NCBI GenBank assembly: GCA_015654835.1
Contig: JAATGG010000046.1
Location: 1-57,276 of the forward strand
Origin: Terriglobales bacterium
GTDB taxonomy: Bacteria > Acidobacteriota > Terriglobia > Terriglobales > Acidobacteriaceae
DNA: 57,276 nucleotides
Reading direction: 5' to 3'
Shown here: positions 8,580 to 30,596 of the stretch, piece after piece
How the letters are laid out: every line of letters starts with the position of its first letter
How positions within the stretch are numbered: the first letter of the stretch is position 1
Program-made: the position numbers and the translations under genes
The notes under the pieces: model-generated
Database searches by the model: none
Seen by the model: only the letters and a program-made list of their open reading frames with translations
Told to the model about the DNA's origin: nothing

Positions 8580-9635
8580 ATGGAAAATACCAGCACCTAT
8601 CATCTTCAGGCCGACGAACTCGATGCTCTCTTTGCCCACTTGGAAGAACAATACCTCGTCTATGCACCTGTACGGATACCCTCTGGAGGGCGGTACGCTC
8701 AAACGGACTCCGTTCTGTATCGGCCGGTGCATCGTTACGAAGACATCGAGTACCGAGAACGCTCGACCTATCCGATGAAGGAAGTCCTTACTCCCATTAC
8801 CCAGACGCTTTTTTATTTTACGGAAGATCAATATCAAGAAAGCAAGCCCCCAGCAAAAGATCTCCTGATATTCGGACGTGCCTGCGACATCAATGCCATT
8901 CGCATTCAAGATCAGATCTATTTGCTAAACGGCGGTGTTGAAGATCCCTTCTACAAACGCGTCCGGGACCGGGCCAAATTTGTACTGATGGAATGCGCGC
9001 AGCAGTTTGAAGGTTGTTTCTGTTGCAGTGTCGGCGCCAATGTGACCGATATGCATGCCATGGCTTTTTCGTTTGGTGAACGGGATGCTCAAATCGAAGT
9101 GTCAGACGAAGCGTTCCGAGATTATTTCAGTCAAGCCAAGCCTTCGGATTATTCCATTCGCTTTCCAGAAGAAAACGAACTCAAGGTGAATTATCCGGTG
9201 ATTGACCGCATGGACATGGCTAACCGCTTAAAAGATCATCCGATGTGGAGAGAGTTCGATGATCGCTGCATCGCCTGCGGCTCCTGCACCGTTGCCTGCA
9301 GCACCTGCACATGCTTTGAGAGCACCGACATTGTCTATACTCAGAACGCACATATCGGCGAACGGCGCCGCACCTGCTCCTCCTGCATGGTGGGTGGATT
9401 CGATCAGATGGCAGGTGGCCAATGCTTTCGCAACAAAACCTCTGAAAAGTACCGCTACAAAATCCTGCATAAAGTGTATGGGCACGACGCGCGGTTCCAC
9501 ACAGGCCCCATGTGCGTTGGCTGTGGACGCTGCTCGGCCAGATGTCCGGAGCTCATCAGCTATCCGGCCACGCTGAACAAACTCTCCAGGGCCATTGAGG
9601 AAATTCAGCCGGAGGAGGTAGCGCATCATGCTTGA
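8580..9635 (+). CDS. asrA: Anaerobic sulfite reductase subunit A
   Basis: Iron-sulfur electron-transfer subunit of the NADH-dependent dissimilatory-type sulfite reductase AsrABC, which makes sulfide in the cytoplasm. 351 residues, the usual length. The N-terminal domain includes DLLIFGRACDINAIRIQDQIYL and ECAQQFEGCFCCSVG. The C-terminal part carries two ferredoxin-type [4Fe-4S] motifs: CIACGSCTVACSTCTC at about 231-246 and CVGCGRCSARCP at about 314-325. Ribosome binding site GGAAGG. First gene of a tight three-gene operon (8-base overlap with asrB). AsrABC is best known from Clostridia and Enterobacteria; its presence here suggests acquisition by transfer. Confidence 0.96.
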   Translation: MENTSTYHLQADELDALFAHLEEQYLVYAPVRIPSGGRYAQTDSVLYRPVHRYEDIEYRERSTYPMKEVLTPITQTLFYFTEDQYQESKPPAKDLLIFGRACDINAIRIQDQIYLLNGGVEDPFYKRVRDRAKFVLMECAQQFEGCFCCSVGANVTDMHAMAFSFGERDAQIEVSDEAFRDYFSQAKPSDYSIRFPEENELKVNYPVIDRMDMANRLKDHPMWREFDDRCIACGSCTVACSTCTCFESTDIVYTQNAHIGERRRTCSSCMVGGFDQMAGGQCFRNKTSEKYRYKILHKVYGHDARFHTGPMCVGCGRCSARCPELISYPATLNKLSRAIEEIQPEEVAHHA

Positions 9636-10428
9636 AAATCCGATCAAACCGCATGCATGCGAAATTTTGGACATTCTGCCGCAGACGGAAACGGAATGGA
9701 CGTTTCGGGTGGCGAACGATCGCCCTGTCCGACATGGCCAGTTTATGCAGCTTTCGCTTCCCCGCATTGGAGAAGCACCGATCTCGGCCAGCGGCTTCGG
9801 AAGCGGATACGTCGACTTCACCATTCGGAAAGTGGGGAAGGTCACCGACGGCCTTTTCAGCCTCCAGAAGGGGGACTCCATTTTCTTACGCGGCTGCTAC
9901 GGAAATGGCTGGCCTCTGGAACGGTTCCGCAACAAACATGTCGTCATCATTGCAGGAGGCACCGGCGTTTCCGCGGTGAAAAGTCTGGTCGACATGATGT
10001 ATAACGACCAGAGCTATGCCAAAGATCTCCATTTAATCTTCGGCTTCAAAAATACATGCAGCGTTTTATTTTCCGATGATCTTCTTCGATGGAAGAATGC
10101 CGCCAGCTTTCATGCTACTTACACACTTGACGCTGAAGAAGCAGAAGGCTGGCAAAAAGGGCTGGTGACCGATTTTCTTGGAAGCATCCCGTTCGCTTCC
10201 TTTGGGGGTGATTATGAATGCATCGTGGTCGGTCCGCCCATCATGATGAAATTCACGGGCTTGGGGCTTCTGACAAGTGGTGTGCCGGAAGACCACATCT
10301 GGATGTCCTTTGAACGAAAAATGTCCTGCGCCATCGGGAAATGCGGCCACTGCCGTATCGACGAAACGTATGTCTGTCTGGACGGCCCGGTTTTCAACTA
10401 CACAATCGGCAGAAGCTTGGTGGATTAG
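9628..10428 (+). CDS. asrB: Anaerobic sulfite reductase subunit B (NADH:FAD/Fe-S)
   Basis: Flavin subunit that takes electrons from NAD(P)H and passes them to AsrA/AsrC; related to dihydroorotate dehydrogenase PyrK and ferredoxin-NADP reductases. FAD-binding barrel at 1-95, nucleotide-binding fold with GGTGVSAVKSLVDMMY at about 112-127, and a C-terminal [2Fe-2S] motif CAIGKCGHCRIDETYVC (C-x4-C-x2-C-x8-C). 266 residues, full length. Starts at ATG 9628 inside the end of asrA, with GGAGGAGG upstream, so translation is coupled. Confidence 0.96.
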   Translation: MLENPIKPHACEILDILPQTETEWTFRVANDRPVRHGQFMQLSLPRIGEAPISASGFGSGYVDFTIRKVGKVTDGLFSLQKGDSIFLRGCYGNGWPLERFRNKHVVIIAGGTGVSAVKSLVDMMYNDQSYAKDLHLIFGFKNTCSVLFSDDLLRWKNAASFHATYTLDAEEAEGWQKGLVTDFLGSIPFASFGGDYECIVVGPPIMMKFTGLGLLTSGVPEDHIWMSFERKMSCAIGKCGHCRIDETYVCLDGPVFNYTIGRSLVD

Positions 10429-10440
10429 GAGGCACTCACC

Positions 10441-11466
10441 GTGGTGGAAGACTGCAATATCAAACAAATGCAGAACAACTGTTACCGTCAATCCAAAGTG
10501 CCCGATGAATTCATGCTCCAGTTGCGAGTGCCAGGTGCTTTGATTGATGCAAAGTGGCTGGATGTGATTCAGCATATCTGCCAGACGTGGGGAAACGGTT
10601 CGTTTCACCTTGGCACGCGGCAGACCCTGAATGCGCCGGGCATTAAGGCCCAGAACATTCCTTCCGTAAACGACTACATTGAGCCATATCTGAAGGCCGT
10701 TGAATGCGATTTGTGCAATGTACAAATGGAAACCAGGAACGGTTATCCCTATATCGCACCGCGCAATATCATGGCTTGCATCGGCAGCGTACATTGCATC
10801 AATGCGAATATAAACACACAGAATATCTCCCACAAGCTGGAGAAGGAGATTTATCCCAATCCGTACCATATCAAGATTTCGGTTTCCGGCTGTCCGAACG
10901 ATTGTGCGAAGGCGCATTTTCAGGATTTAGGCATCGTCGGCTGCACAAGGCCTATCTACGACATGGATCGCTGCATCGGCTGCGGAGCGTGTGTGAGGAA
11001 ATGCGAGAAAGCGGCCACCCGTGTTCTTTCGCTGAATGACAAGCATAAAGTGAGCAAAGATGCTTGTTGCTGCGTAGGCTGCGGAGAATGCGTGACCGCC
11101 TGTCCGACCGGCGCATGGAAACGGCCCAATAGAATCTTCTACCGGATCATTCTGGGAGGACGGACGGGCAAGCAGTGTCCCCGCATGGGGAAGCTGTTCG
11201 CCAACTGGCTGACGGAAGATAGTCTGCTCGGCATGATGAGAAACTGGCCGAAATTTTCCGATTGGGTGCTTGGGGGAAAACCTGTCTACATTCACGGCGG
11301 CCACTTAATCGACCGCGCGGGCTATCAGCGCTTCAAAGAGTTTATGCTTGACGGTGTTACGCTCAATCCGGAAGCAATCATTGCGGAAAGCGTGAACTGG
11401 GCGGAAACGGAATATCGCAGCAATATTCACGTTAAGCCTCTAAGCAAGCATCAGACAGTGAAGTAG
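10441..11466 (+). CDS. asrC: Anaerobic sulfite reductase subunit C (sirohaem catalytic subunit)
   Basis: Catalytic subunit that reduces sulfite to sulfide by six electrons. The sirohaem/[4Fe-4S] cysteines are all present: CIGSVHC (C-x5-C) and SGCPNDC (C-x3-C), placed about 35 residues apart as in the nitrite/sulfite reductase family. Two extra ferredoxin motifs follow (CIGCGACVRKC and CVGCGECVTACP), typical of AsrC. GTG start 10441 with GGAGG twelve bases upstream; GTG 10444 is an alternative. 341 residues, full length. Last gene of the operon; no sirohaem synthase is nearby. Confidence 0.96.
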   Translation: MVEDCNIKQMQNNCYRQSKVPDEFMLQLRVPGALIDAKWLDVIQHICQTWGNGSFHLGTRQTLNAPGIKAQNIPSVNDYIEPYLKAVECDLCNVQMETRNGYPYIAPRNIMACIGSVHCINANINTQNISHKLEKEIYPNPYHIKISVSGCPNDCAKAHFQDLGIVGCTRPIYDMDRCIGCGACVRKCEKAATRVLSLNDKHKVSKDACCCVGCGECVTACPTGAWKRPNRIFYRIILGGRTGKQCPRMGKLFANWLTEDSLLGMMRNWPKFSDWVLGGKPVYIHGGHLIDRAGYQRFKEFMLDGVTLNPEAIIAESVNWAETEYRSNIHVKPLSKHQTVK

Positions 11467-19967: not shown

Positions 19968-20396
19968 ATGAGAAAAATTCTTCACGTACTATCCGTTGGG
20001 TCCGCGGATGCAAGTATGTTTGTCCGAGATGCACTCCTTGAGCGACAGAAATGCCGGCTGGCAAGTGCAACCTGCCTTCGAGAACTGTTCTCGATTGCGA
20101 AGGAGGAGAAAATTGAGATCGCAGTTCTGCACCAGAACCTCTCTCCCGCCGAGTTTCGTGAAACTGCAGGCTACATTCGCAAGAGGTGGCCCGCGGCAAA
20201 GATCCTTGTTGTGTGCTGCATGACAACAGATTTTCTTGAGGACCCACTGTACGATGAGCGGGCCACTCCAGGACTATCGCAGCAATCTCTTCTTTCGAAG
20301 ATCGAATGTCTAGCGGACACATCCGCATCGATGACGGTGGAAGCAAAGAATTGGCACGGCATTACCGTTAGAGATCGAAAAGGAAACCTGCCGTGA
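19968..20396 (+). CDS. Pseudo-receiver (CheY-like) protein lacking the phosphoacceptor
   Basis: 142 residues with a receiver-like alternation of strands and helices: KILHVLSVG, VRDALLERQKCRLASAT, EIAVLHQNLSPAEF, AAKILVVCCM. Where receivers have the phosphorylated Asp (strand 3 end) it has His-Gln, and the N-terminal acidic pair is missing, so it cannot be phosphorylated in the usual way. The C-terminal third is not receiver-like. Plausibly a protein-interaction module. It precedes the ECF sigma gene by about 50 bases and is probably its operon partner; a regulatory (anti- or co-sigma) role is only inference. Confidence 0.65.
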   Translation: MRKILHVLSVGSADASMFVRDALLERQKCRLASATCLRELFSIAKEEKIEIAVLHQNLSPAEFRETAGYIRKRWPAAKILVVCCMTTDFLEDPLYDERATPGLSQQSLLSKIECLADTSASMTVEAKNWHGITVRDRKGNLP

Positions 20397-20444
20397 ATGC
20401 ATGGATGCAGGCATTTCAGTTTCGGTCTTTGCGAGGAGGACACG

Positions 20445-21170
20445 TTGACGTTTACTGGAATGAAAGGCGTAGTAGATTTCGCATCGGCCCCAAAGTCCGT
20501 CCCGGCGCATCCCCAGCAGTTAGCTGATCTGTGCGCCTGGACAGAAGATCAATTAGTGGCTTCGGCGCAGAGGGGATGCCGCTCCGCATTCGATGAACTG
20601 TTTGTGCGGTATAAGCGCGTCGTGTACGGAGCTGCGCGCCGCTATGCGGACTCCTGCGACGAAGCAGAAGACTTGGTACAAGAAACCATGTTGCGCGCGT
20701 TTCGGAATATAGAGAAATTCCGTGGCCAAGCGCGGTTCTCCTCCTGGCTGGTCGCGATTGCCGTCAATGCCGGCATCTCGGCAAAACGCAAGGCTGGGCG
20801 TGCGAAATGGGTATATCTGGACGACCCACGAAAAGCGAAGGACAACGGCGTCGCTTTCGTTCTGGCTGACCGCCGAGCGACACCGGAACAAGTGTGCATT
20901 CGAAGGGAGCACAAAAAATTGTTGGCAGACAAGATTCGCCAGCTTCACCCCAAATATCGCGTTGTTCTGCAGGGGATGGACCTGGCGGGATCATCGATTC
21001 ACATCACGGCGTCTTCCTTGGGAATCACGGATGGCGCGGCAAAATCGCGCCTCTATCGTGCACGCCATATGCTCACAGATGCCCTGCAAACGTACACAAC
21101 TAAGAAGTTTGTACGGAAGGATGCCGCTCATCCACTGGAGTCCCCTCATCGGCAGAGTAGATTTCTATGA
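20445..21170 (+). CDS. ECF-type RNA polymerase sigma factor
   Basis: Alternative sigma factor. Region 2: AFDELFVRYKRVVYGAARRYADSCDEAEDLVQETMLRAFRNIEKFRGQARFSSWLVAIAVNAGI, with all hallmarks of sub-regions 2.1-2.4. Region 4: LHPKYRVVLQGMDLAGSSIHITASSLGITDGAAKSRLYRARHML. The TTG start at 20445 has GAGGAGG five to six bases upstream; ATG 20460 is the next candidate and the frame is open back to 20397. It overlaps the HgdB-like gene by four bases (ATGA), so the two are translationally coupled. No anti-sigma gene is visible. It may drive its own operon. Confidence 0.92.
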   Translation: MTFTGMKGVVDFASAPKSVPAHPQQLADLCAWTEDQLVASAQRGCRSAFDELFVRYKRVVYGAARRYADSCDEAEDLVQETMLRAFRNIEKFRGQARFSSWLVAIAVNAGISAKRKAGRAKWVYLDDPRKAKDNGVAFVLADRRATPEQVCIRREHKKLLADKIRQLHPKYRVVLQGMDLAGSSIHITASSLGITDGAAKSRLYRARHMLTDALQTYTTKKFVRKDAAHPLESPHRQSRFL

Positions 21171-22936
21171 ATGGAGTCTCAGCACCACACCAAATACCTG
21201 ACGAAAGGTATTCGTGCGACAATCTGCGCGCACCACTGATCCCACACGAAGCGGCCTTCTCCGCCGCCGAGCGTGCCACGGTAACGATCCTTTTTGGCGG
21301 TCTTACCTGGAAGCACGAGCGGCTCATTGAAGGTCTCCTTGCCGGAGCAGGCTATCTGTGCCAGAAGCTACCGGAGACCGATCGGGCAGCACATGAACTG
21401 GGCAAGGAATTCTGCGCCAGCGGCCTCTGCAATCCTGTTTACTTCACCGTCGGCAATCTCATCCGTTTCCTCGAAGAGAAGCACAAGGCAGGCCTTCCCC
21501 GCGAAGAAATCGTTTGCCGCTTCGTCTACTTCACGGCGGCCTGTGGTGGCCCTTGCCGCTTCGGCATGTACGAATCAGAGTTCCGCGTGGCCCTGAATGC
21601 TGCCGGCTACGTGGGCTTCCGCGTGCTCTCTTTCTCGCAGGACCACGGCATCCGTGCCTCCACTGGCCATAGCGGCCTCCAGTTCTCCGTCGACTTCGGT
21701 ATGAACGCGCTGCACTCGTTCATCCTGGGCGATCTCCTGAACTCCACTCAGCACCGGCTCAGACCGTACGAAGTCAGAGCCGGCGCGACCGATCAGGCTA
21801 TCGCACGTATGACCGAAATGATCGCGCAGCACTTCGCAGCGCACAGTGCGTTCGAGCTTCGCGGGCACGTGCCGGCCTTTCTGCTGCCTCGCGACACCTC
21901 TCGGGCCTACCGCATCCCCAACACCCTCGGGAAAGTCTGGTCGCATTTGTACGGCCACGCGCTCACCGGTGTTCTACCCGCGGCAGCCAACGAACTCCTG
22001 ACCGTTGAGGTGGACTGGCTGCGCGTGCGCCCGGTAGTCAAGGTCATCGGAGAGTTCTGGGCACAGATGACCGAGAGCGATGGCAATTTTCGCATGCTTG
22101 AGTTCCTTGAAAAGGAAGGCACGGAGGCGTCGATCGAACCCGTCAGCACCTGGCTGCTCTACATGCTGCATCAGCGCAAAGCGCGCGTCGCCTTTAGCCA
22201 GCAAATGGCTGCTTACGCAGCACCATGGACTTCTCCTGTCAAAGCCCTCGCCGTACGCGCTGCGGCATGGGCCAAGCAGACGGGCCTTTCCCTCGGCACC
22301 GGGATTTACCGCCGTCATTTCCGCCGTCTGGCCCGTCTGCTCGGATTACCCGAACAATTGTTGGTATCGCAGAAGACACTCTCAACATTGGCGGCACCCT
22401 ATTACAGTACCTTCCTGCGCGGCGGTGAAGGGCACCTGGAAGTGGGCAAAACCCTCTATTACACGCAGCACAAAGTATGCCATCTGGTTCTGGCGTTAAA
22501 GCCCTTCGGCTGCCTGCCCTCCGTGCAATCGGACGCTGTGCAGGCATCGCTCGTCGAGCGGTTTCCCGAGGTCAGCTTCCTCTCCATCGAAACCTCTGCT
22601 GACGGCGAGATTCACGCCTACAGTCGTGTACAGATGGCGCTGTCAGAAGCCCGAGCGAAGGCCACGACGGAGTTCGCGCAAGCTCTCCACAAGGCCCGGC
22701 ACTCACTCGATGAAATTCGAGAGTTTGTCGCAGCGCATGCGGAACTGCGCCACCCACTCTTCCCGATTCCACGCCACGCGGGCGTGGTTTCTACTGCCGC
22801 CAACTTCTTGTTGTATACGGACCAACTCATGTCTGCCCACCTTACGAACGGTGCTGTGCTGCATTCCCGGCGAGATCCTCGGCTTCAGGAGGCAGTAATA
22901 CAGCATGTTCATCCCACACAGGAGACTGAATCTTGA
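21167..22936 (+). CDS. HgdB/BcrB-like (COG3581, 2-hydroxyacyl-CoA dehydratase/double-cubane type) protein
   Basis: 589-residue protein of the group that in other bacteria forms the C-terminal part of very large 'CoA-activase plus DUF2229' proteins. Family features: GKEFCASGLCNPVYFTVGNLI (Cys83, Cys88), RFVYFTAACGGPCRFGMYESEFR (Cys126, Cys130), then SFSQDHGI. These cysteines are likely cluster ligands. Related enzymes are the iron-sulfur dehydratases/reductases HgdAB and BcrBC and the double-cubane cluster proteins that reduce small molecules after ATP-driven activation. The partner activase is three genes down (24528). Starts within the sigma gene and overlaps the radical SAM gene by four bases. 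Substrate unknown. Confidence 0.8.
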   Translation: MNGVSAPHQIPDERYSCDNLRAPLIPHEAAFSAAERATVTILFGGLTWKHERLIEGLLAGAGYLCQKLPETDRAAHELGKEFCASGLCNPVYFTVGNLIRFLEEKHKAGLPREEIVCRFVYFTAACGGPCRFGMYESEFRVALNAAGYVGFRVLSFSQDHGIRASTGHSGLQFSVDFGMNALHSFILGDLLNSTQHRLRPYEVRAGATDQAIARMTEMIAQHFAAHSAFELRGHVPAFLLPRDTSRAYRIPNTLGKVWSHLYGHALTGVLPAAANELLTVEVDWLRVRPVVKVIGEFWAQMTESDGNFRMLEFLEKEGTEASIEPVSTWLLYMLHQRKARVAFSQQMAAYAAPWTSPVKALAVRAAAWAKQTGLSLGTGIYRRHFRRLARLLGLPEQLLVSQKTLSTLAAPYYSTFLRGGEGHLEVGKTLYYTQHKVCHLVLALKPFGCLPSVQSDAVQASLVERFPEVSFLSIETSADGEIHAYSRVQMALSEARAKATTEFAQALHKARHSLDEIREFVAAHAELRHPLFPIPRHAGVVSTAANFLLYTDQLMSAHLTNGAVLHSRRDPRLQEAVIQHVHPTQETES

Positions 22937-24222
22937 GCGATCTACCCAGGCTGTCCACCGAATCCGGCTCCGCTTATCGCATCAATGACGCCATCAATGA
23001 CGAGTTGATGAGCGGTAGCCGGTCGCAAGTTCCGCCTCCACCCGGCGGAGTGCGGCAAACCCTGCCTGAGCCGGTCTTTCCGCAAAAGCCCAACTTGTAC
23101 ACGGCCCACGACGAATCCTACTTACCCAAGAATGGCAAGCGCCACTGGACCGTTCCGCAGATCTACCACGCGATGCGGGGCTGGATGTTTCCCTATTTTC
23201 ACTCGCGTCTTCAGAGCGGAGAATTCCATCCCATCATCACCTACCTCTTTAACGAGTGGAAATGCAACCTCGATTGCAACTACTGCTGGGCCTACGATAA
23301 CCGCGTCAATGGCATGACCGAGGACATTGCCAAGCGTTCCATCGATTGGTTGCACTCGACAACCTGCCGTGTGCTTGCGCTCATGGGTGGCGAAGTGTTG
23401 CTGCGTCCCCAGTTCGCGCACAAGGTCATCTACTACGCGGCCAAGCGAGGCTTCTGGGTTTATTTGCCTACAAACGGCCGCCTCATGAAACCAGATATCA
23501 TCGATCGCATTGCCGATGCCGGCGTTGCCACCGTGAACCTGGCCGTCGATGCCTGGGACATAAAGCCAGGGCTACCCAAGGCAATGGTTCCCATTCGCCA
23601 GGGCTTCAATCACCTCGTGCGCAAGCAGTACAAATACGGCTACTCCGTGTTCCTCAACATCAATATTTGCCGCAACAACCTGAAGGACGTGCGCATGTTG
23701 ACCGAGCTCGCACATGACAACGGAATCGCCACCGACTACCACATCTGCGAGTCGCCCATGTTGGAACATGGCGACTTCAGGCATCTGGAGGACAACCCGG
23801 TCTTCATCCGCCCCGAGGATCATGCGGCTATCGGCGAACTCATCGACTGGTTGATCGAAAAGCAGAACTCCGGCTGGCAGATGGTCAACTCCGTCCAGCG
23901 CCTCGCCGAGATGAAGAAGTTCATGAACAAGGAACTAGAAGAGTGGGGCTGCCGCGCCGGTCAGAACAGCATCATCATCCGCACGGACGGAACGCTCGCG
24001 CCATGCTTTCCCATGTATTCCACAAATCATGACTGGGGAACCATTGAAGCACCGCGGATGGAGCCGAATCAGCTGAAGGCCATGAAATATGCTTGCGAGG
24101 CAAACTGTTTCTCCACGCTCAACCACATTCTCGCCTTCTGCTACAACGACACCCGCGTCATTCATTGGTTGTTCAAGCAGGCGCTGCACGGCTTCCAGGG
24201 AGTACGCGGCAACATGGAGTAG
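22933..24222 (+). CDS. Radical SAM/SPASM-like protein
   Basis: S-adenosylmethionine radical enzyme. CxxxCxxC at Cys111, Cys115, Cys118 (CNLDCNYCW) binds the [4Fe-4S] cluster; MGGEVLLRP is the SAM-binding GGE motif. The C-terminus has SPASM-like auxiliary cluster cysteines: CRAGQNSIIIRTDGTLAPC, then CEANC and a further Cys in LAFCYND. The N-terminal 100 residues are Pro-rich and specific. TTG start with GGAGA upstream, overlapping the previous stop by four bases. Within a reductase/activase operon it may mature a cofactor or modify a peptide or the partner protein. No precursor peptide is obvious except the small frame at 24248. Confidence 0.88.
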   Translation: MSDLPRLSTESGSAYRINDAINDELMSGSRSQVPPPPGGVRQTLPEPVFPQKPNLYTAHDESYLPKNGKRHWTVPQIYHAMRGWMFPYFHSRLQSGEFHPIITYLFNEWKCNLDCNYCWAYDNRVNGMTEDIAKRSIDWLHSTTCRVLALMGGEVLLRPQFAHKVIYYAAKRGFWVYLPTNGRLMKPDIIDRIADAGVATVNLAVDAWDIKPGLPKAMVPIRQGFNHLVRKQYKYGYSVFLNINICRNNLKDVRMLTELAHDNGIATDYHICESPMLEHGDFRHLEDNPVFIRPEDHAAIGELIDWLIEKQNSGWQMVNSVQRLAEMKKFMNKELEEWGCRAGQNSIIIRTDGTLAPCFPMYSTNHDWGTIEAPRMEPNQLKAMKYACEANCFSTLNHILAFCYNDTRVIHWLFKQALHGFQGVRGNME

Positions 24223-24247
24223 GCATTGAATCGCCGAGGATCTGCAT

Positions 24248-24445
24248 ATGAAGAAGGGCTACCAGTATCTTCTCTCTCAACTGCTGGATCTTCCCGGCAC
24301 TCGCTTCGTAGCCGGACAACTACACAGAATGATTCGAGCACTCATACACGGCTGCTTGACAATAATCTATCTGGCATGCTTTTTGATACTGCATTTTTCT
24401 CTGCTGAATCTAACCAGATCGCACATACGACGCTTGCGGGAGTGA
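24248..24445 (+). CDS. Possible small membrane protein, 65 aa
   Basis: Short open frame between the radical SAM and activase genes. Residues 30-55 (MIRALIHGCLTIIYLACFLILHFSLL) form one strongly hydrophobic helix with a basic tail. The ATG lies 26 bases after the preceding stop; GAGGAT is a weak ribosome binding site. It could be a single-pass membrane subunit, a radical SAM substrate, or nothing. Low confidence because nothing recognisable supports it. Confidence 0.3.
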   Translation: MKKGYQYLLSQLLDLPGTRFVAGQLHRMIRALIHGCLTIIYLACFLILHFSLLNLTRSHIRRLRE

Positions 24446-24527
24446 TGGCATCGGTGTGGGCTTAGCATCAGTTCGAATAGCTCAAAGATGTTTATATGCG
24501 CGGAATCGCCTGAGGAGGAAGGAAATC

Positions 24528-27500
24528 ATGCAGCAGTTCTTTGCGGGACTCGACGTTGGTTCAACGACTGTGAAAACCGTTGTGTGTTCCGCGAATGACA
24601 GAAGAATCCTCTTTCACAAATACGTGCGCCACGAAAGTCATCAGGCGGAGACAGTCTTTGATTCCGTTCGGGAGATAAAGCGGGAACTCAGTATTTCAGA
24701 CGAGAATCTGTGCGTGTTTATGACTGGAAGCGGAGGCCATCGTCTTGCCGAACCACTTGGGGCACGTTTCGTCCAGGAAGTAGCCGCAGTCAGTTCTGCG
24801 GTCGAAACCGGTTTTCCCGATGTACGCTCCGTCATCGAACTCGGCGGACAGGACGCCAAGATGATCTTCTTCCAGGAGAGCGGCGATGGCAGCCGCATGA
24901 AGAAGATTGCCACCATGAACGACAAGTGCGCCGGAGGAACCGGTGTTGTGATCGAGAAGATCGCCGCCAAACTGCATATTTCCTCCCATGACCTGCACAC
25001 GCAGAGCTATGACTATGTGCAGGTGTACCCCATTGCCGGCAAGTGTGGTGTATTTGCCGAAACCGACATTACCGGTCTGCAAAAACAGGGGGTTCCACCC
25101 GACCAGTTGATGGCCTCGCTGTTCCAGGCGGTCGTGCTACAGAACCTGAGCGTACTCACACGCGGCCACACGCTGCGGCCCAAAGTGTTTCTGCTCGGCG
25201 GTCCGAATGCTTTCTTCCCTGGCCTGCAAGCCGCGTGGCGAAAAGGTCTGCTCGATCTGTGGACGCGAAAGAATATTGCCATCCCCTCCGCAATTCCTCC
25301 AGAGGAACTCGTCGTCATCCCGCCAATGGCGGAGTACTTTGCCGCAGTAGGCGCGATTCAATTCGGCGCTGCGGAGCAAGACAATACCGTCCAGTACAAA
25401 GGCACCTATGCACTGGAAGAGTACATTCGCAGGCAGGATCTTTCGGCCAGGTGCCCGGAGGAACCGGGCAGCCTGCGCGGAAGCCTGGATGAGTTCGAGC
25501 ACTTTCGCAAGACCTATTCCCTGCCCTCTCCTGTGCTCCCGCGGTCGTGCTCCAACAGTGGTGTTTTTATAGGTTTGGATGGCGGCTCGACTTCCACCAA
25601 AGCCGTCGCACTCTCCGAGGATGGCGAAGTCATCGCCAGCTCCTACAGGCTCTCCCAGACCGATCCGATCTCGGATGCAGTCGCCGTTCTGCGCGAACTC
25701 AGAGATGAGCTATTGCAGGCCGGCTTATCGACTCAGGTTCTGGGACTCGGAACTACTGGATACTCCAAGGGCTTGCTTGCCAAGGCGCTCTCCGCGGATG
25801 TGGCCCTGGTGGAAACCGTGGCTCACGCGCAGTCATCCCTTCGCGTCTTTCCCGATGCGGACGCCATCATCGATGTCGGCGGCCAGGACATCAAGATCAT
25901 CGTACTGCGAGACGGAACGGTCAAAGACTTCAAACTGAACACGCAGTGTTCGGCGGGCAATGGATACTTTCTGCAGGCTGCCGCCGAGTCCATTGGCATT
26001 CCCGTTGAGGATTTTGCCGATGCAGCCTTTCGCGCACACCGGATGCCCGAGTTCAGCTATGGCTGCGCTGTCTTTCTGCAGTCGGACATCGTAAACTTTC
26101 AGCGGCAGGGATGGAAGCCCGAAGAGATCCTTGCCGGACTGGCCGCCGTGCTGCCCAAGAATATCTTTCTCTATGTCGCCGGAGTATCCAACGTAGCGGC
26201 GCTGGGCCGGCGCTTCGTGTTGCAGGGCGGAACGCAAAGAAACCTCGCCGTCGTAAAAGCCGAACTGGACTTCATCCGGAAGCACTACCATGGCGACGGA
26301 GAGCCCGAGGTGTTCGTGCACCCTCACTGCTGCGAGGCCGGCGCGATCGGCGCAGCACTGGAAGCGATCGATCTCTGGAAGTCCGGCCACTCAACCGTCT
26401 TCCGTGGTTTTCAGGCACTCGATGTCCTTCGCTATGCTGCCCGCCGCGACGAAACTACGCGCTGCCATTTCTGCGCCAACCGCTGTCTGCGAACCTTCGT
26501 CGAACTGACGTCGGAGACCGCTGCTGCCGATATTCCCAGGCGTATCATCGTCGCCACGTGTGAGCGTGGCGAGGCCGAAGATGCAAGCACGGCCAAAACA
26601 ATCAGCACGGTCTGGGCTGGCCTGCGGCAGAGTTCCCCCAACTACGTGCAATTGGCCGCGGAACAAGCGTGGCAATCGATGTCGCCAGAGTCCACGCACA
26701 CCGCCGCGCCGCGCCGCGCGCTCCTACCTTTCTTGAAGAACGGCCTGCTCGAAAGGCAGGACCAACGCAGCCGTATGCACATCGGCATTCCACGCGCGCT
26801 CAATCTCTTCACTTACGCGCCGCTCTTCTCCGCCTATTTCGAAAGCCTCGGCGTGCCGTCCACAAACCTGCACTACTCGCACTTCACGAATCCCGGGCGC
26901 TACCAGGAAGCTGCCGGTTTTTCTGCCGTCGATCCGTGCTTCCCCTCCAAAGTCTCCACAGCCCACGTCTTCGATCTGCTGCAACAGTCTAAACAGTGCC
27001 ACCTTGACGCCATCTTCTTCCCCATGTTTGACGTGCTGGCGACGCAGCTCGACAACTGCTCTGGATCGAGCGCATGTCCCTCCGGATCGGCCACACCGGA
27101 AGCAGTCAAGGCGAACTTCTCTCGCGCCGTGGACTGGTTCCGCGAAGCACACGTGCGGTACCTGAACCCGATACTTGATCTTGCGGACCGCGACTTATTC
27201 ACCTATCAGATGTTCGCCTGCTGGAAAGACCTGCTGCATCTCGACTGGGCAGAACATACACGCGCCGTCGGCATCGCCTTCAGCCTTTGGGAGACCTTCG
27301 AGGCCCGCTTCCGCCAGCGTGCCAGCCTCACGCTCAACGAACTGGAGCACAGCGGAAACATCGGACTTGTGATGCTTGGCCGCCCGTATCATCACGATCC
27401 CGGATTGAACCAGGGAATCCTTGAAGAATTAAACCGCCTTGGCTACCCGATCTTCTCGCAGAATCTACTTCCACTCGGCGCAGACCTGCTTGCGCGCCTG

Positions 27501-27983
27501 TTCGGCGCCGAGGTCGACGCGGGCGTCATCCGCTCGCCCCTCGATATATCCGACGTATGGAAGAGCACCTTTTCCGCCAGTTCCAACCAAAAGATCTGGG
27601 CGGCCAAGTTCGTGGCGCGTCATCCGAACCTCATTTCGGTGGAGCTGTCAAACTTCAAGTGCGGTCATGACGCTTTCATCAGCCGCGTGATCGAACAGGT
27701 CATCGAGCAATCCGGCAAGCCGCATTTTTCCTTCCGCGATTTGGACGAAAACCGTCCACTGGCCTCGATCCGCATTCGCATCGAAACCATGCATTACTTT
27801 CTTCGCCACTATCGTGAACGATTACAGGCGTTTACATCCGCTCGGCTCAGTATCGGCCGTACGGAACTGTCGGCAACACGTTGCAGTGCGGTATCAACGC
27901 AACAGAACACCAATTGCTCTCATCGAATGGAAATAGCGCGACCGATGTGTCGGAGTTGTATTGAGAAACAGCGACCGGCATGA
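24528..27983 (+). CDS. Double CoA-activase/DUF2229 fusion (BadF/BcrA/HgdC type), 1151 aa
   Basis: ATP-driven electron activator for 2-hydroxyacyl-CoA dehydratase or double-cubane type enzymes. Two ASKHA ATPase domains: 4-280 (GLDVGSTTVK; cluster cysteines Cys134 in NDKCAGGTG and Cys173 in AGKCGVFAE) and 345-610 (GLDGGSTSTK; Cys474 in NTQCSAGNG and Cys513 in YGCAVFLQSD). A Cys-rich linker follows (CHFCANRCLRTF, about 652-663). Residues about 752-1090 are DUF2229/HgdB-like (MHIGIPRALNLFTYAPLFSAYFESLGVP; GRPYHHDPGLNQGI; FKCGHDA). In many bacteria this is fused to the COG3581 part; here that part is separate at 21167. ATG 24528 follows GAGGAGGAAGG. Soluble, oxygen-sensitive activity expected. Confidence 0.88.
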   Translation: MQQFFAGLDVGSTTVKTVVCSANDRRILFHKYVRHESHQAETVFDSVREIKRELSISDENLCVFMTGSGGHRLAEPLGARFVQEVAAVSSAVETGFPDVRSVIELGGQDAKMIFFQESGDGSRMKKIATMNDKCAGGTGVVIEKIAAKLHISSHDLHTQSYDYVQVYPIAGKCGVFAETDITGLQKQGVPPDQLMASLFQAVVLQNLSVLTRGHTLRPKVFLLGGPNAFFPGLQAAWRKGLLDLWTRKNIAIPSAIPPEELVVIPPMAEYFAAVGAIQFGAAEQDNTVQYKGTYALEEYIRRQDLSARCPEEPGSLRGSLDEFEHFRKTYSLPSPVLPRSCSNSGVFIGLDGGSTSTKAVALSEDGEVIASSYRLSQTDPISDAVAVLRELRDELLQAGLSTQVLGLGTTGYSKGLLAKALSADVALVETVAHAQSSLRVFPDADAIIDVGGQDIKIIVLRDGTVKDFKLNTQCSAGNGYFLQAAAESIGIPVEDFADAAFRAHRMPEFSYGCAVFLQSDIVNFQRQGWKPEEILAGLAAVLPKNIFLYVAGVSNVAALGRRFVLQGGTQRNLAVVKAELDFIRKHYHGDGEPEVFVHPHCCEAGAIGAALEAIDLWKSGHSTVFRGFQALDVLRYAARRDETTRCHFCANRCLRTFVELTSETAAADIPRRIIVATCERGEAEDASTAKTISTVWAGLRQSSPNYVQLAAEQAWQSMSPESTHTAAPRRALLPFLKNGLLERQDQRSRMHIGIPRALNLFTYAPLFSAYFESLGVPSTNLHYSHFTNPGRYQEAAGFSAVDPCFPSKVSTAHVFDLLQQSKQCHLDAIFFPMFDVLATQLDNCSGSSACPSGSATPEAVKANFSRAVDWFREAHVRYLNPILDLADRDLFTYQMFACWKDLLHLDWAEHTRAVGIAFSLWETFEARFRQRASLTLNELEHSGNIGLVMLGRPYHHDPGLNQGILEELNRLGYPIFSQNLLPLGADLLARLFGAEVDAGVIRSPLDISDVWKSTFSASSNQKIWAAKFVARHPNLISVELSNFKCGHDAFISRVIEQVIEQSGKPHFSFRDLDENRPLASIRIRIETMHYFLRHYRERLQAFTSARLSIGRTELSATRCSAVSTQQNTNCSHRMEIARPMCRSCIEKQRPA

Positions 27984-28076: not shown

Positions 28077-30596
28077 GTGCTGAAGAGCGTTCCAGGTGCG
28101 GAAGATCTAGTCGAATTGGCACTGGATATGCGGTGGTCCTGGAGCCATGCTTCCGACAAGTTGTGGGGGCAAATTGATCCGGAGCTGTGGGAGATTACGC
28201 ATAACCCATGGGTCGTTTTCCAGACAGCCTCTCCCGCCAAGCTCAATCAGTTGCTCAGCGAGAAGGGCTTCCGCAAGGAAGTAAATCGCCTTCGGACCAA
28301 TCAAGCAAGAGAAAGCAATCCTGTAGCGGGAAGCGACACTGAAGCTTGGTTTCAGAAGTCCCATCCAGATTCCAAGCTGAAAACTGTAGCGTACTTCAGC
28401 ATGGAATTTGGCTTGAGCGAAGCTTTGCCAATCTACTCAGGTGGGCTCGGCAATGTAGCAGGCGATCAACTAAAATCGGCCAGCGACCTTGGGGTCCCAG
28501 TCGTTGGTGTCGGACTCCTCTATCAGCAGGGGTACTTCCGCCAGGTCATCGGAGCAGACGGTTCGCAGAGGGCAGTCTATCCGTATAACGATCCCTCGCA
28601 GTTGCCGATCCTTCCGCTCCGGGACAGTGCAGGTGAATGGCTCCGTGTTCGGGTCCAACTGCCGGGATACGCGGTGTGGGTGCGTACCTGGGAAGTCAAG
28701 GTAGGGCGGGTCCGCCTTTTGCTTCTGGACAGCAACGATCCGGCCAATCCTCCCGTACATCGCGGCATTACGAGCGAGCTGTACGGCGGTGGAACGGAAA
28801 TGCGCCTTCAACAGGAAATTATTCTTGGCATCATCGGTTACCGCATGCTCCACCTGCTTGGCATCGCACCGGATGTATGCCATCTGAACGAAGGCCACGC
28901 CGGATTCGCTGTTTGGGAACGGGCGCGCGTTTTCATGGAAAAGACAGGGCTTCCCTTCGATGTGGCTCTCCTCGCAACCCGCGCCGGCAACCTCTTCACC
29001 ACACACACACCAGTCGATGCAGGAATCGATCGATTCCCGGCACCCATGATTGAACATTATCTTCGCTGGTATGCCACGCAAATCCTTCACATTGATGTCA
29101 ATGACCTGCTGGCGATGGGAAAACTGAATCCAGCCGATCCAAATGAGCCGTTCAATATGGCTTATCTGGGTATCCGGGGATGCGGAGCGGTAAACGGCGT
29201 CAGCCAGTTGCATGCTCAGGTGAGCCGAAAGATGTTCAGCAACCTGTTCCCGCGGTGGCCGCTCGAAGAGGTCCCCGTATCATGCGTCACCAATGGCGTA
29301 CATGTTCCAAGCTGGGATTCAGGCGAGTCGGATGCCCTTTGGCATAAAGCTTGTGGCTCGGATCGATGGAGACAGGACCTCGATGAAATCGAATCGCAAA
29401 TCCGCACTGCCTCAGATAATGACCTCTGGAAAATGCGCTGTGCCAACCGGAGTCATCTGGTCGACTCGGTGAGAATCAGGAACAAGAGGCAGGAAAGTTC
29501 CATAGGAACCTGGGTGGCCACTGAAGATAAAGAGAAGCATCTTTTCGATCCAAACGTGTTGACGCTGGGCTTTGCCCGCCGTTTCGCAACTTACAAGCGC
29601 CCCAATCTCCTGCTTCACGACCCGGAACGGCTGATCCGGATACTGACAAACGCCAGCCAGCCAGTGCAGTTGGTCGTCGCCGGCAAAGCCCATCCGCAAG
29701 ATCACGACGGCCAGGCCATGATTCAACAATGGGTTCAGTTCTCCCGCCGAAAGGAAGTCAACGGCCGGGTAGTATTCCTGAGCGACTACGATATGAGCCT
29801 GGCGGAAGAGCTCGTGCAAGGTGTCGACGTTTGGATCAATACTCCGCGTCGCCCTTGGGAAGCGTGTGGCACAAGTGGAATGAAGGTTCTCGTGAATGGT
29901 GGACTCAACCTTTCCTCTCTCGATGGCTGGTGGGCGGAAGCCTACGACCCGGCCCTTGGTTGGGCGGTAGGAGATCACCAGGGCAGCGCCGATGAAGCCG
30001 CGCAGGATGCCGCGGAAGCAAACCAACTGTATTCCTTGCTGGAAAACACAGTTATTCCTCTCTACTATCGTCGCGAGAGCAATGGGATACCGGTTTCCTG
30101 GGTGGCCATGATGCGCGAAAGCATGGCTCGGCTCACCGGTCAATACTCGGCGAACCGAAGCGTGCGTGAGTATACGGAGAGCTATTATCTCCCCGCCGCA
30201 GAGGCATACGACAAACGAACAGGCAATAATGGTGATTTCGCCGTTCAACTTCACGCAAAACAAACCGCCTTGCGAACACACTGGCAGGAGATTCATTTTC
30301 GCGAATTCGCCACGAGCAGCGACGAACATGGAACCTCCTTTCGAGCTCACATTTATCTCGGAGCTGTCCGTCCTGAGCATATTAGGGTTGAACTATTCGC
30401 CGACAATCCTGGCAGCGCGCCGTTCATTGCGGAAATGTGCAGGACCAGCGAGCTAGTTGGCATTGCGGGTGGTTTTGTCTTTGAAGCAAGGGTGTCCACA
30501 GGTAGACCGCCGAGCGACTATACTGCCCGCATCGTCCCTGCTCTCGAAACATTGGCGGTACCACTGGAGGAAACTCAAATACGATGGCAGAGATGA
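28077..30596 (+). CDS. glgP: Alpha-glucan (glycogen) phosphorylase, Thermotoga AgpA-type
   Basis: Releases glucose-1-phosphate from glycogen or maltodextrin. Bears the N-terminal DUF3417 (LALDMRWSWSHASDKLW) that marks the short GT35 subfamily. Catalytic region: TKYFSMEFGLSEALPIYSGGLGNVAGDQLK-type motif (as AYFSMEFGLSEALPIY), NEGHAGFAVWERA, FARRFATYKRPNLLL, and PRRPWEACGTSGMKVLVNGGL with the PLP lysine. 839 residues, full length. An ATG at 28044 with AAAGG upstream opens the same frame but meets TGA after four codons (28056), so translation must start at GTG 28077, which lacks a good ribosome binding site. No other glycogen genes adjoin. Confidence 0.92.
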   Translation: MLKSVPGAEDLVELALDMRWSWSHASDKLWGQIDPELWEITHNPWVVFQTASPAKLNQLLSEKGFRKEVNRLRTNQARESNPVAGSDTEAWFQKSHPDSKLKTVAYFSMEFGLSEALPIYSGGLGNVAGDQLKSASDLGVPVVGVGLLYQQGYFRQVIGADGSQRAVYPYNDPSQLPILPLRDSAGEWLRVRVQLPGYAVWVRTWEVKVGRVRLLLLDSNDPANPPVHRGITSELYGGGTEMRLQQEIILGIIGYRMLHLLGIAPDVCHLNEGHAGFAVWERARVFMEKTGLPFDVALLATRAGNLFTTHTPVDAGIDRFPAPMIEHYLRWYATQILHIDVNDLLAMGKLNPADPNEPFNMAYLGIRGCGAVNGVSQLHAQVSRKMFSNLFPRWPLEEVPVSCVTNGVHVPSWDSGESDALWHKACGSDRWRQDLDEIESQIRTASDNDLWKMRCANRSHLVDSVRIRNKRQESSIGTWVATEDKEKHLFDPNVLTLGFARRFATYKRPNLLLHDPERLIRILTNASQPVQLVVAGKAHPQDHDGQAMIQQWVQFSRRKEVNGRVVFLSDYDMSLAEELVQGVDVWINTPRRPWEACGTSGMKVLVNGGLNLSSLDGWWAEAYDPALGWAVGDHQGSADEAAQDAAEANQLYSLLENTVIPLYYRRESNGIPVSWVAMMRESMARLTGQYSANRSVREYTESYYLPAAEAYDKRTGNNGDFAVQLHAKQTALRTHWQEIHFREFATSSDEHGTSFRAHIYLGAVRPEHIRVELFADNPGSAPFIAEMCRTSELVGIAGGFVFEARVSTGRPPSDYTARIVPALETLAVPLEETQIRWQR

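Follow-up and report, generated by a model that had tools for sequence, protein, structure and literature searches.

In the family Acidobacteriaceae, a radical SAM gene is genuinely associated with the genes for a two-protein reductase: it occurs in 65 of the 300 family genomes sampled, and in 62 of these 65 the gene for the HgdB-like reductase subunit is also present. The association is seen here in an operon on contig JAATGG010000046.1 from the draft genome of a Terriglobales bacterium (the window, i.e. the whole stretch of 57,276 nucleotides analysed). Judged by its architecture, the reductase pair may be an ether-lipid reductase, a split enzyme resembling PlsA/PlsR and Ger, with the radical SAM protein as a lipid-tailoring enzyme; this is our leading reading, held at about even odds.

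The operon and its second copy

The five genes of the operon are as follows.

19968-20396, + strand: receiver-like protein, 142 aa; Response_reg match below the Pfam cut-off, homologue in the second operon copy, lineage-specific
20397-21170, + strand: ECF-type sigma factor, 257 aa; Sigma70_r2 (E 3e-19) and Sigma70_r4_2 (E 6e-7) in Pfam, lineage-specific
21167-22936, + strand: predicted HgdB/COG3581-like reductase subunit (PlsR-like, 'Red2'), 589 aa; fold and conserved cysteines C88, C130 and C449
22933-24222, + strand: radical SAM protein, 429 aa; Radical_SAM (E 2e-15) in Pfam
24528-27983, + strand: double activase with DUF2229 (PlsA-like, 'Act1-Act2-Red1'), 1151 aa; two BcrAD_BadFG stretches and DUF2229 in Pfam

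The coordinates and the junctions, as read from the sequence, bear out the five same-strand genes with ATGA and TTGA overlaps described in the first-pass annotation: the stop of the receiver-like gene is followed without a gap by the ATG of the sigma gene, the sigma/HgdB-like junction is an ATGA overlap, and the HgdB-like/radical SAM junction is a TTGA overlap. The activase gene does not overlap its neighbour, with 305 nt lying between the radical SAM stop and the activase start at ATG 24528 (an alternative GTG at 24456 would add 24 residues). Rfam gave no match in the window.

The draft genome holds the five genes a second time, in identical order, on a different contig (G000:C53), which rules out a chance arrangement. 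The two copies share 84% identity in the radical SAM protein, 74% in the HgdB-like subunit, 73% in the activase and 45% in the sigma factor. The C53 operon and the window contig likely come from one genome, since their tetranucleotide profiles correlate at 0.96 (the bin contig C51 gives 0.977 and three others 0.83-0.95) and their GC contents are similar (56 versus 55%); co-binned contamination as the origin of the C53 operon is thus disfavoured. A pairwise alignment of the two operon upstream regions revealed no clear shared promoter.

The two regulatory genes stand apart from the rest. The receiver-like protein matches Response_reg only at E 0.092 (13.4 bits, under the cut-off of 30.2) and, on our reading of its sequence, has a His at the position of the phospho-acceptor Asp of receivers; its counterpart in the C53 operon (112 bits) is itself without a Pfam match. 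Among the matches listed from the 300 family genomes, the closest relative of the window sigma factor is that of the C53 operon (154 bits), and the next one (121 bits), like the other matches listed, does not adjoin an HgdB-like gene. None of the fetched neighbourhoods of other genomes has a sigma gene adjoining the HgdB-like gene, and the ECF sigma factor and an Asp-less receiver-like protein were seen only with the window operon and its C53 copy; in five other genomes a sigma-54 activator gene occupies the corresponding place. On the sigma matches listed and the HgdB-like neighbourhoods fetched, we reject the sigma factor as a conserved partner, and the earlier proposal that it controls the system as one of its parts is not sustained. 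We take these two regulators to switch the operon locally, outside the core.

The reductase pair compared with known systems

The two activase (ASKHA) domains, each with a cysteine pair, and the DUF2229 part attributed to the 1151-aa protein at first pass are confirmed jointly by Pfam and the cysteine alignment. The activase pairs, C134/C173 and C474/C513, are retained in 71 of 71 aligned sets; further cysteines lie in the linker (C646/C649/C653/C678) and in DUF2229 (C804/C850/C1045). For the reductase pair as a whole, the cluster ligand cysteines are retained in 69-71 of 71 aligned homologue sets, i.e. the key cysteines have not been lost.

Pfam finds nothing over a cut-off in the 589-aa protein, and a profile of the HgdB-like proteins retrieved no relevant match from the PDB sequences. 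Its AlphaFold2 model (mean pLDDT 85) gave a Foldseek search whose first six rows are DCCP, BzdNO and MbdNO, with a best E of 0.0057 and none below 0.001. By predicted fold the protein is thus HgdB/COG3581-like, and it is the modelled fold, not Pfam, that bears out the suggestion that the COG3581-like part is encoded by a separate gene. The genes for the HgdB-like protein and the activase occur together in all 56 of the 56 window-class loci examined.

This set of parts recalls PlsA/PlsR and Ger, which are described as converting the esters of phospholipids reductively into vinyl or alkyl ethers in bacteria. Two PF01869 domains plus DUF2229 are present and conserved in 71 aligned sets, and the alignment and the fold provide the second, HgdB-like reductase part with cluster cysteines. 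PlsA/PlsR of Clostridium perfringens (CPE1195/CPE1194) is likewise reported to be encoded by two genes, which together supply a pair of activase domains, DUF2229 and a second reductase part of the HgdB type and are said to be fused in lactic acid bacteria. The window system differs in having the reductase gene upstream of the activase gene, a radical SAM partner, a longer (589-aa) subunit and a separate position in the tree. Ger (glycerol ester reductase; Tmari_0479 of Thermotoga maritima and its counterpart in D. alkenivorans), here taken by description, shares the two activation domains, a feature that the literature ties to alkyl rather than vinyl ethers; the Ger proteins of both species are, however, described as single PlsA-like proteins, whereas the window enzyme is split. 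Solibacter usitatus, also an acidobacterium with a PlsA-like reductase, has PlsAR homologues proposed to form the ether bonds of brGDGTs, and the accounts available mention no radical SAM neighbour of the kind found in the window.

The window activase is 27.6-29.8% identical over 94-96% to, and matches in its cysteines, the PlsA-type proteins of Collinsella, Haliovirga, Acetoanaerobium and Fusobacterium, themselves without experimental validation. The HgdB-like subunit is only about 21-25% identical to its counterparts over 35-79%; relative to the 404-aa Fusobacterium subunit, it is extended at the C-terminus and carries insertions at roughly 205-285 and 330-400. In a midpoint-rooted tree built without a validated Ger or PlsA sequence, the window class forms a separate, long-branched acidobacterial clade.

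The long branch also suits a different reading, namely that the pair is an ATP-driven reductase for some other substrate (a small molecule or thioester), like DCCP, benzoyl-CoA reductases or 2-hydroxyacyl-CoA dehydratases, with the radical SAM enzyme making or modifying that substrate. Indeed, DCCP and benzoyl-CoA reductases are the top fold matches of the 589-aa protein, and the activase and the two-domain cluster-binding fold are common to DCCP/DCCP-R, benzoyl-CoA reductase, HgdABC and the window pair. Those systems, however, act on other substrates with a separate, single-domain activase, while the window protein is a fused double activase with DUF2229, as in PlsA and Ger. Moreover, the 25 window proteins scanned with Pfam include no acyl-CoA pathway gene, as the first-pass annotation had held for the vicinity, and no recurrent extra enzyme was seen in the reductase neighbourhoods. 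These features do not match the 2-hydroxyacyl-CoA dehydratase/benzoyl-CoA reductase class, and we consider the broader other-substrate reading possible, if somewhat unlikely.

The radical SAM protein and its association with the reductase

The radical SAM protein carries the motif CxxxCxxC at 111-118 and predicted auxiliary cluster cysteines C340, C358, C388 and C392, and C246 is also invariant; the four C-terminal cysteines are invariant across the family. With the lipid radical SAM enzymes Tes, Grs and Gms (the latter two compared by description), it has the radical SAM core in common. Gms has a SPASM domain with two auxiliary clusters, and the four C-terminal cysteines of the window family are too few to ligate two clusters fully. 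Tes (7tol) was the second of 25 PDB sequences retrieved by the family profile (E 2.5e-9), a match confined to the core and not far from those of CteB and viperin; the Tes model NF045702 is not among the best 25 NCBIfam models for the protein, and we reject its identity as Tes. Structure searches with its model returned generic fold matches that leave its reaction unspecified. In a plasmid collection, its relatives appear in five records, none with more than 80% coverage.

The HgdB-like gene is present in 92 of the 300 family genomes. The two genes lie on one strand and no more than 600 bp apart at 38 loci in 37 genomes, with 19 loci for each gene order; named relatives belong to Acidobacteriaceae such as Edaphobacter, Granulicella and Terracidiphilus. 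The association is thus conserved and not accidental to this genome. Inheritance of one ancestral gene order with no functional tie could be suspected, as the window's family is the only one in which the genes were seen side by side and the Fisher tests ignore kinship. We regard this as highly improbable, given the two gene orders, the looser arrangements (at loci L160-L165 the radical SAM gene is a few genes off or on the opposite strand), the occurrence of the gene in 35 of 79 genera sampled, and co-occurrence where the genes are unlinked (e.g. G073, G318 and G339).

The dependence is one-sided. Good-quality family genomes divide into 50 with both genes, one with the radical SAM gene only, 19 with the HgdB-like gene only and 138 with neither, so that 19 of 69 carrying the HgdB-like gene do without the radical SAM gene; outside the family, it is missing from 14 of 19 genomes having the window-class reductase pair. 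This bears on the initial idea that the radical SAM protein matures a cofactor, peptide or partner. Its auxiliary-cluster architecture does resemble that of the peptide maturases SkfB, CteB, SuiB and anSME, and the tight gene linkage is compatible with a maturase whose target is a cluster, a peptide or the reductase and not a lipid. Nevertheless, because the pair often occurs without the radical SAM gene and so does not need it, we judge a maturase unlikely, and the one-sided dependence points to tailoring rather than to obligatory maturation. Nor do the neighbourhoods contain a recurrent small precursor-like gene, except for one encoding a 94-104 aa protein. This protein, which has no Pfam match, is found near eight loci, and at several of these the radical SAM gene is missing.

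A possible role in ether-lipid synthesis

Of the original interpretation, the dedicated ATP-driven reductive system, supported by the architecture and the intact cluster ligands, and the radical SAM partner stand, while the sigma factor drops out as a system part. The substrate, left unnamed there, can be narrowed to a candidate phospholipid ester, because two PF01869 domains, DUF2229 and an HgdB-like part constitute the architecture described for PlsA/PlsR and Ger. The analysis itself establishes the genes and their domains, the retained ligands, the predicted fold, the operon duplication and the conserved linkage among the three core genes; we infer the lipid substrate from the architecture, the electron path from homologues and the radical SAM reaction from the one-sided dependence. 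If the ether-lipid reading is correct, the activase/DUF2229 and HgdB-like proteins would be the two pieces of a single enzyme that works in the manner of PlsA/PlsR and Ger. One [4Fe-4S] cluster would be held jointly by the two activase domains (2+2 Cys), and ATP would drive very-low-potential electrons from the activase into a pseudo-dimer of DUF2229 and the HgdB-like protein, in which either half would carry a cluster with three cysteines. There, reduction of the acyl ester of a glycerolipid would pass through a hemiacetal and end in an ether of the vinyl or alkyl type. The substrate of the radical SAM enzyme would be this ether lipid or an intermediate, on which it might, for example, form a C-C bond along the chain, as Tes and Gms do, or handle the vinyl ether.

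The lipids of the family provide a mixed context. Acidobacteriaceae are reported to be rich in iso-diabolic acid and to include a brGDGT maker, and the route to ether bonds in soil Acidobacteria is described as still open. Acidisarcina polymorpha SBC82, the one cultured strain identified and a strain with a complete genome, carries all three core genes, at about 2.05 Mb of its chromosome; in the table published for its acid hydrolysate, iso-diabolic acid appears but ether lipids do not, which counts against the ether-lipid reading, together with the separate long branch and a comparison set free of validated Ger or PlsA proteins, and in favour of another substrate. Paralogues of the DUF2229 system may also have other substrates. 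In the literature searched, plsA and ger are nowhere mentioned with a radical SAM gene next to them, which falls short of proving that no such report is in print.

More speculatively, the three genes could form a compact acidobacterial ether-lipid module, in which a split Ger-type reductase and a new chain-modifying radical SAM enzyme (coupling, cross-linking or vinyl-ether handling) supply the missing steps of brGDGT synthesis in Acidobacteriaceae under local, perhaps oxygen-responsive, regulators (an ECF sigma factor here, sigma-54 activators elsewhere); we think it quite unlikely that this full scenario is right. The three-gene set is in any case a testable candidate for part of the unsolved bacterial synthesis of tetraether lipids, the branched forms of which are widely used paleoclimate proxies, and, being defined, duplicated here and present in a cultured strain, it is open to expression and deletion. 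Should the radical SAM enzyme act on lipid chains, it would define a new family of lipid radical SAM enzymes, and should the pair have some other substrate, it would add a new branch to the ATP-driven reductases.

In the window's draft genome, no protein exceeds the curated Tes cut-off (NF045702, 450 bits; best E 2.7e-16). With no strong Tes-like protein, tail coupling is not seen there, which counts against the ether-lipid reading. In favour of that reading, among the 24 Tes-positive genomes (over the same cut-off), the radical SAM gene is present in 15 (p 7e-6, kinship ignored) and the HgdB-like gene in 14 (p 0.004, likewise).

A conserved three-gene system in a duplicated operon

The genes for the HgdB-like protein, the radical SAM protein and the double activase constitute a real, conserved system, the reductase part of which is a split PlsA/Ger-like enzyme with ether lipids as its most likely product. 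The first-pass annotation had called the substrate unknown; the PlsA/Ger architecture narrows it to a putative phospholipid ester. In the accessible portions of the literature searched, no earlier description of a radical SAM partner of such a reductase was found. The five plus-strand genes at 19968-27983 are present as originally claimed, and so, when read, are their overlapping junctions, except that the radical SAM and activase genes lie 305 nt apart.

Genes within 19968-27983, in order
First, + strand: receiver-like protein, 142 aa (gene call and domain search)
Second, + strand: ECF sigma factor (domain search)
Third, + strand: HgdB-like protein, 589 aa (gene call)
Fourth, + strand: radical SAM protein, 429 aa (domain search)
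Fifth, + strand: double activase with DUF2229, 1151 aa (domain search)

The draft genome (4.7 Mb, completeness 91.65%, contamination 4.41%) contains the five-gene set a second time, in identical order, on contig C53, with identities to the window copy of 84% (radical SAM), 74% (HgdB-like), 73% (activase) and 45% (sigma). The composition of the two contigs fits a single genome, a co-binned relative being the possible alternative in a draft bin. An alpha-glucan phosphorylase gene (28077-30596, + strand, in the window) lies 3' of both copies, with one LolA-like gene intervening on C53. A third HgdB-like fragment, possibly a decayed relative, occurs at G000:C51:11903-12088 (- strand; loci L003/L005) in a 146-aa frame with 42% identity over 62 residues, and by our own reading adjoins a CRP/FNR-like gene. 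Elsewhere in the window, a tandem trio at 8580-11466 (+ strand) with Fer4_22, NAD-binding/DHODB Fe-S and NIR_SIR+Fer4 domains has what we take to be the layout of anaerobic sulfite reductase AsrABC, which suggests an organism capable of anaerobic or low-oxygen life.

The radical SAM partner and local control

Among 300 sampled genomes of the window's family, taken to be the Acidobacteriaceae (cut-offs E <= 1e-40 for radical SAM, E <= 1e-20 for HgdB-like), radical SAM was found in 65 and HgdB-like in 92, and 62 of the 65 carry both (Fisher p 3e-37, kinship ignored), showing the association to be conserved; the search scores the best few candidates per genome, so that some absences may be misses. 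In 37 genomes the two genes lie less than 600 bp apart on the same strand, at 38 loci (the window's genome counting twice), with HgdB-like first in 19 and radical SAM first in 19; in others the radical SAM gene is a few genes off or on the opposite strand (L160-L165), or unlinked. Among the loci examined, those with a radical SAM gene adjoining all belong to this family. Outside it, 19 of 23 genomes searched have a pair of the window's class (window-class), five of these 19 encoding radical SAM on other contigs; the four with related pairs or fused forms yielded none. By our own reading, the 120 listed radical SAM and 120 listed activase relatives have seven same-sized contigs in common.

The dependence is one-sided: of 208 good-quality family genomes, 50 have both genes, 19 HgdB-like alone, one (G348) radical SAM alone and 138 neither. 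Because HgdB-like often occurs without radical SAM and the reverse is rare, we take the radical SAM protein to be a tailoring enzyme that acts after the pair, and not an obligate maturase; the initial suggestion had been that it matures a cofactor, peptide or partner. Fragmented radical SAM and HgdB-like genes, with a stop, at G550:C7:12552-15360 suggest loss of the module in that genome.

The sigma factor had also been regarded as part of the system. In the neighbourhoods and the family search, however, sigma and receiver-like genes stand, among the matches listed, only beside the two operon copies of the window's genome, and the ECF sigma factor is a local addition. Five other genomes (L051, L157, L158, L159, L177) have, divergent from the radical SAM gene, a neighbour belonging to one and the same cluster; a domain scan identifies two of these five cluster members, and a homologue beside the activase in L047, as GAF-sigma-54 activators. 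The core is thus constant, whereas local control varies by lineage.

Affinities of the reductase pair

Those relatives that carry names belong to the Acidobacteria, mostly Acidobacteriaceae, Terracidiphilus, Edaphobacter and Granulicella, from which we infer that the window's family is the Acidobacteriaceae; a Hydrogenedentota MAG has an HgdB-like relative with 40% identity. Of 297 sampled genomes of the phylum, 23 carry the HgdB-like gene at full length (E 1e-110 or better); in another two it is truncated at a contig end. The activase gene accompanies the HgdB-like gene in all 56 window-class loci examined, some of which have the radical SAM gene interposed. Near these genes, eight loci (L143, L146, L148, L149, L166, L059, L062, L063) encode a protein of 94-104 aa with no Pfam match, found both with and without a radical SAM gene nearby.

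According to the parts of the cited papers available to us, PlsA comprises Act1, Act2, Red1 and Red2, which C. perfringens divides between two genes, plsA and plsR (PMC12838417; PMC8788747). Anaerobic expression in E. coli of its homologue Ger, which has two activation domains, gives alkyl ethers at sn-1 and some at sn-2 (PMC11150832; PMC13274423). Tmari_0479 is a candidate Ger of T. maritima (PMC8788747), and PlsAR homologues had earlier been put forward as the source of ether bonds in Solibacter usitatus, an acidobacterium (PMC10087280). The window pair has an architecture identical to that of PlsA/PlsR and, like Ger, two activation domains; T. maritima gave a DUF2229 match in the control set. 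Over 94-96% coverage, PlsA-type proteins from Collinsella, Haliovirga, Acetoanaerobium and Fusobacterium (the last likewise split) are 27.6-29.8% identical to the activase and retain its cysteines; the HgdB-like part is far more distant from PlsA-type proteins.

In a midpoint-rooted tree of 67 rows (four truncated rows excluded), for which the program warned of long branches, the window's clade (50 acidobacterial rows) has full support and a long branch and, with three three-piece relatives, stands opposite the fused PlsA-type proteins. Since this clade is separate and long-branched, the root is a midpoint only, and the comparison used published descriptions and PlsA-type relatives in place of validated Ger/PlsA sequences, we consider that the pair would work like PlsA/Ger and is probably a divergent branch, and do not claim its identity as Ger. 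A second acidobacterial split group (L073-L078), with activases of about 1015-1068 aa, lies farther off in the same tree, well apart from the window's clade; both groups coexist in some genomes, e.g. G073, G121 and G265. Residues 357-391 of the HgdB-like protein form a cationic amphipathic helix (net charge +8, moment 0.62; a single calculation, without control) that could suit a membrane surface.

Lipid evidence

In Acidisarcina polymorpha SBC82 (G358) the genes for the radical SAM protein, the HgdB-like protein and the activase are consecutive, yet the acid-hydrolysate table for this strain, in the portion of the source available, gives 30.7% iso-diabolic acid and does not list ether lipids (PMC6252331). 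The system is either conditional or makes a product other than an ether lipid. The response to oxygen varies with the species: at 1% oxygen, Edaphobacter aggregans is described, in the part of the report consulted, as producing more brGDGT, and S. usitatus less per cell (PMC13274423). Most of the 300 family genomes have a match to the Tes model near 320 bits, below the Tes cut-off and, among the rows listed, commonly some 700 aa long; this Tes-like protein may be the maker of the family's common iso-diabolic acid.
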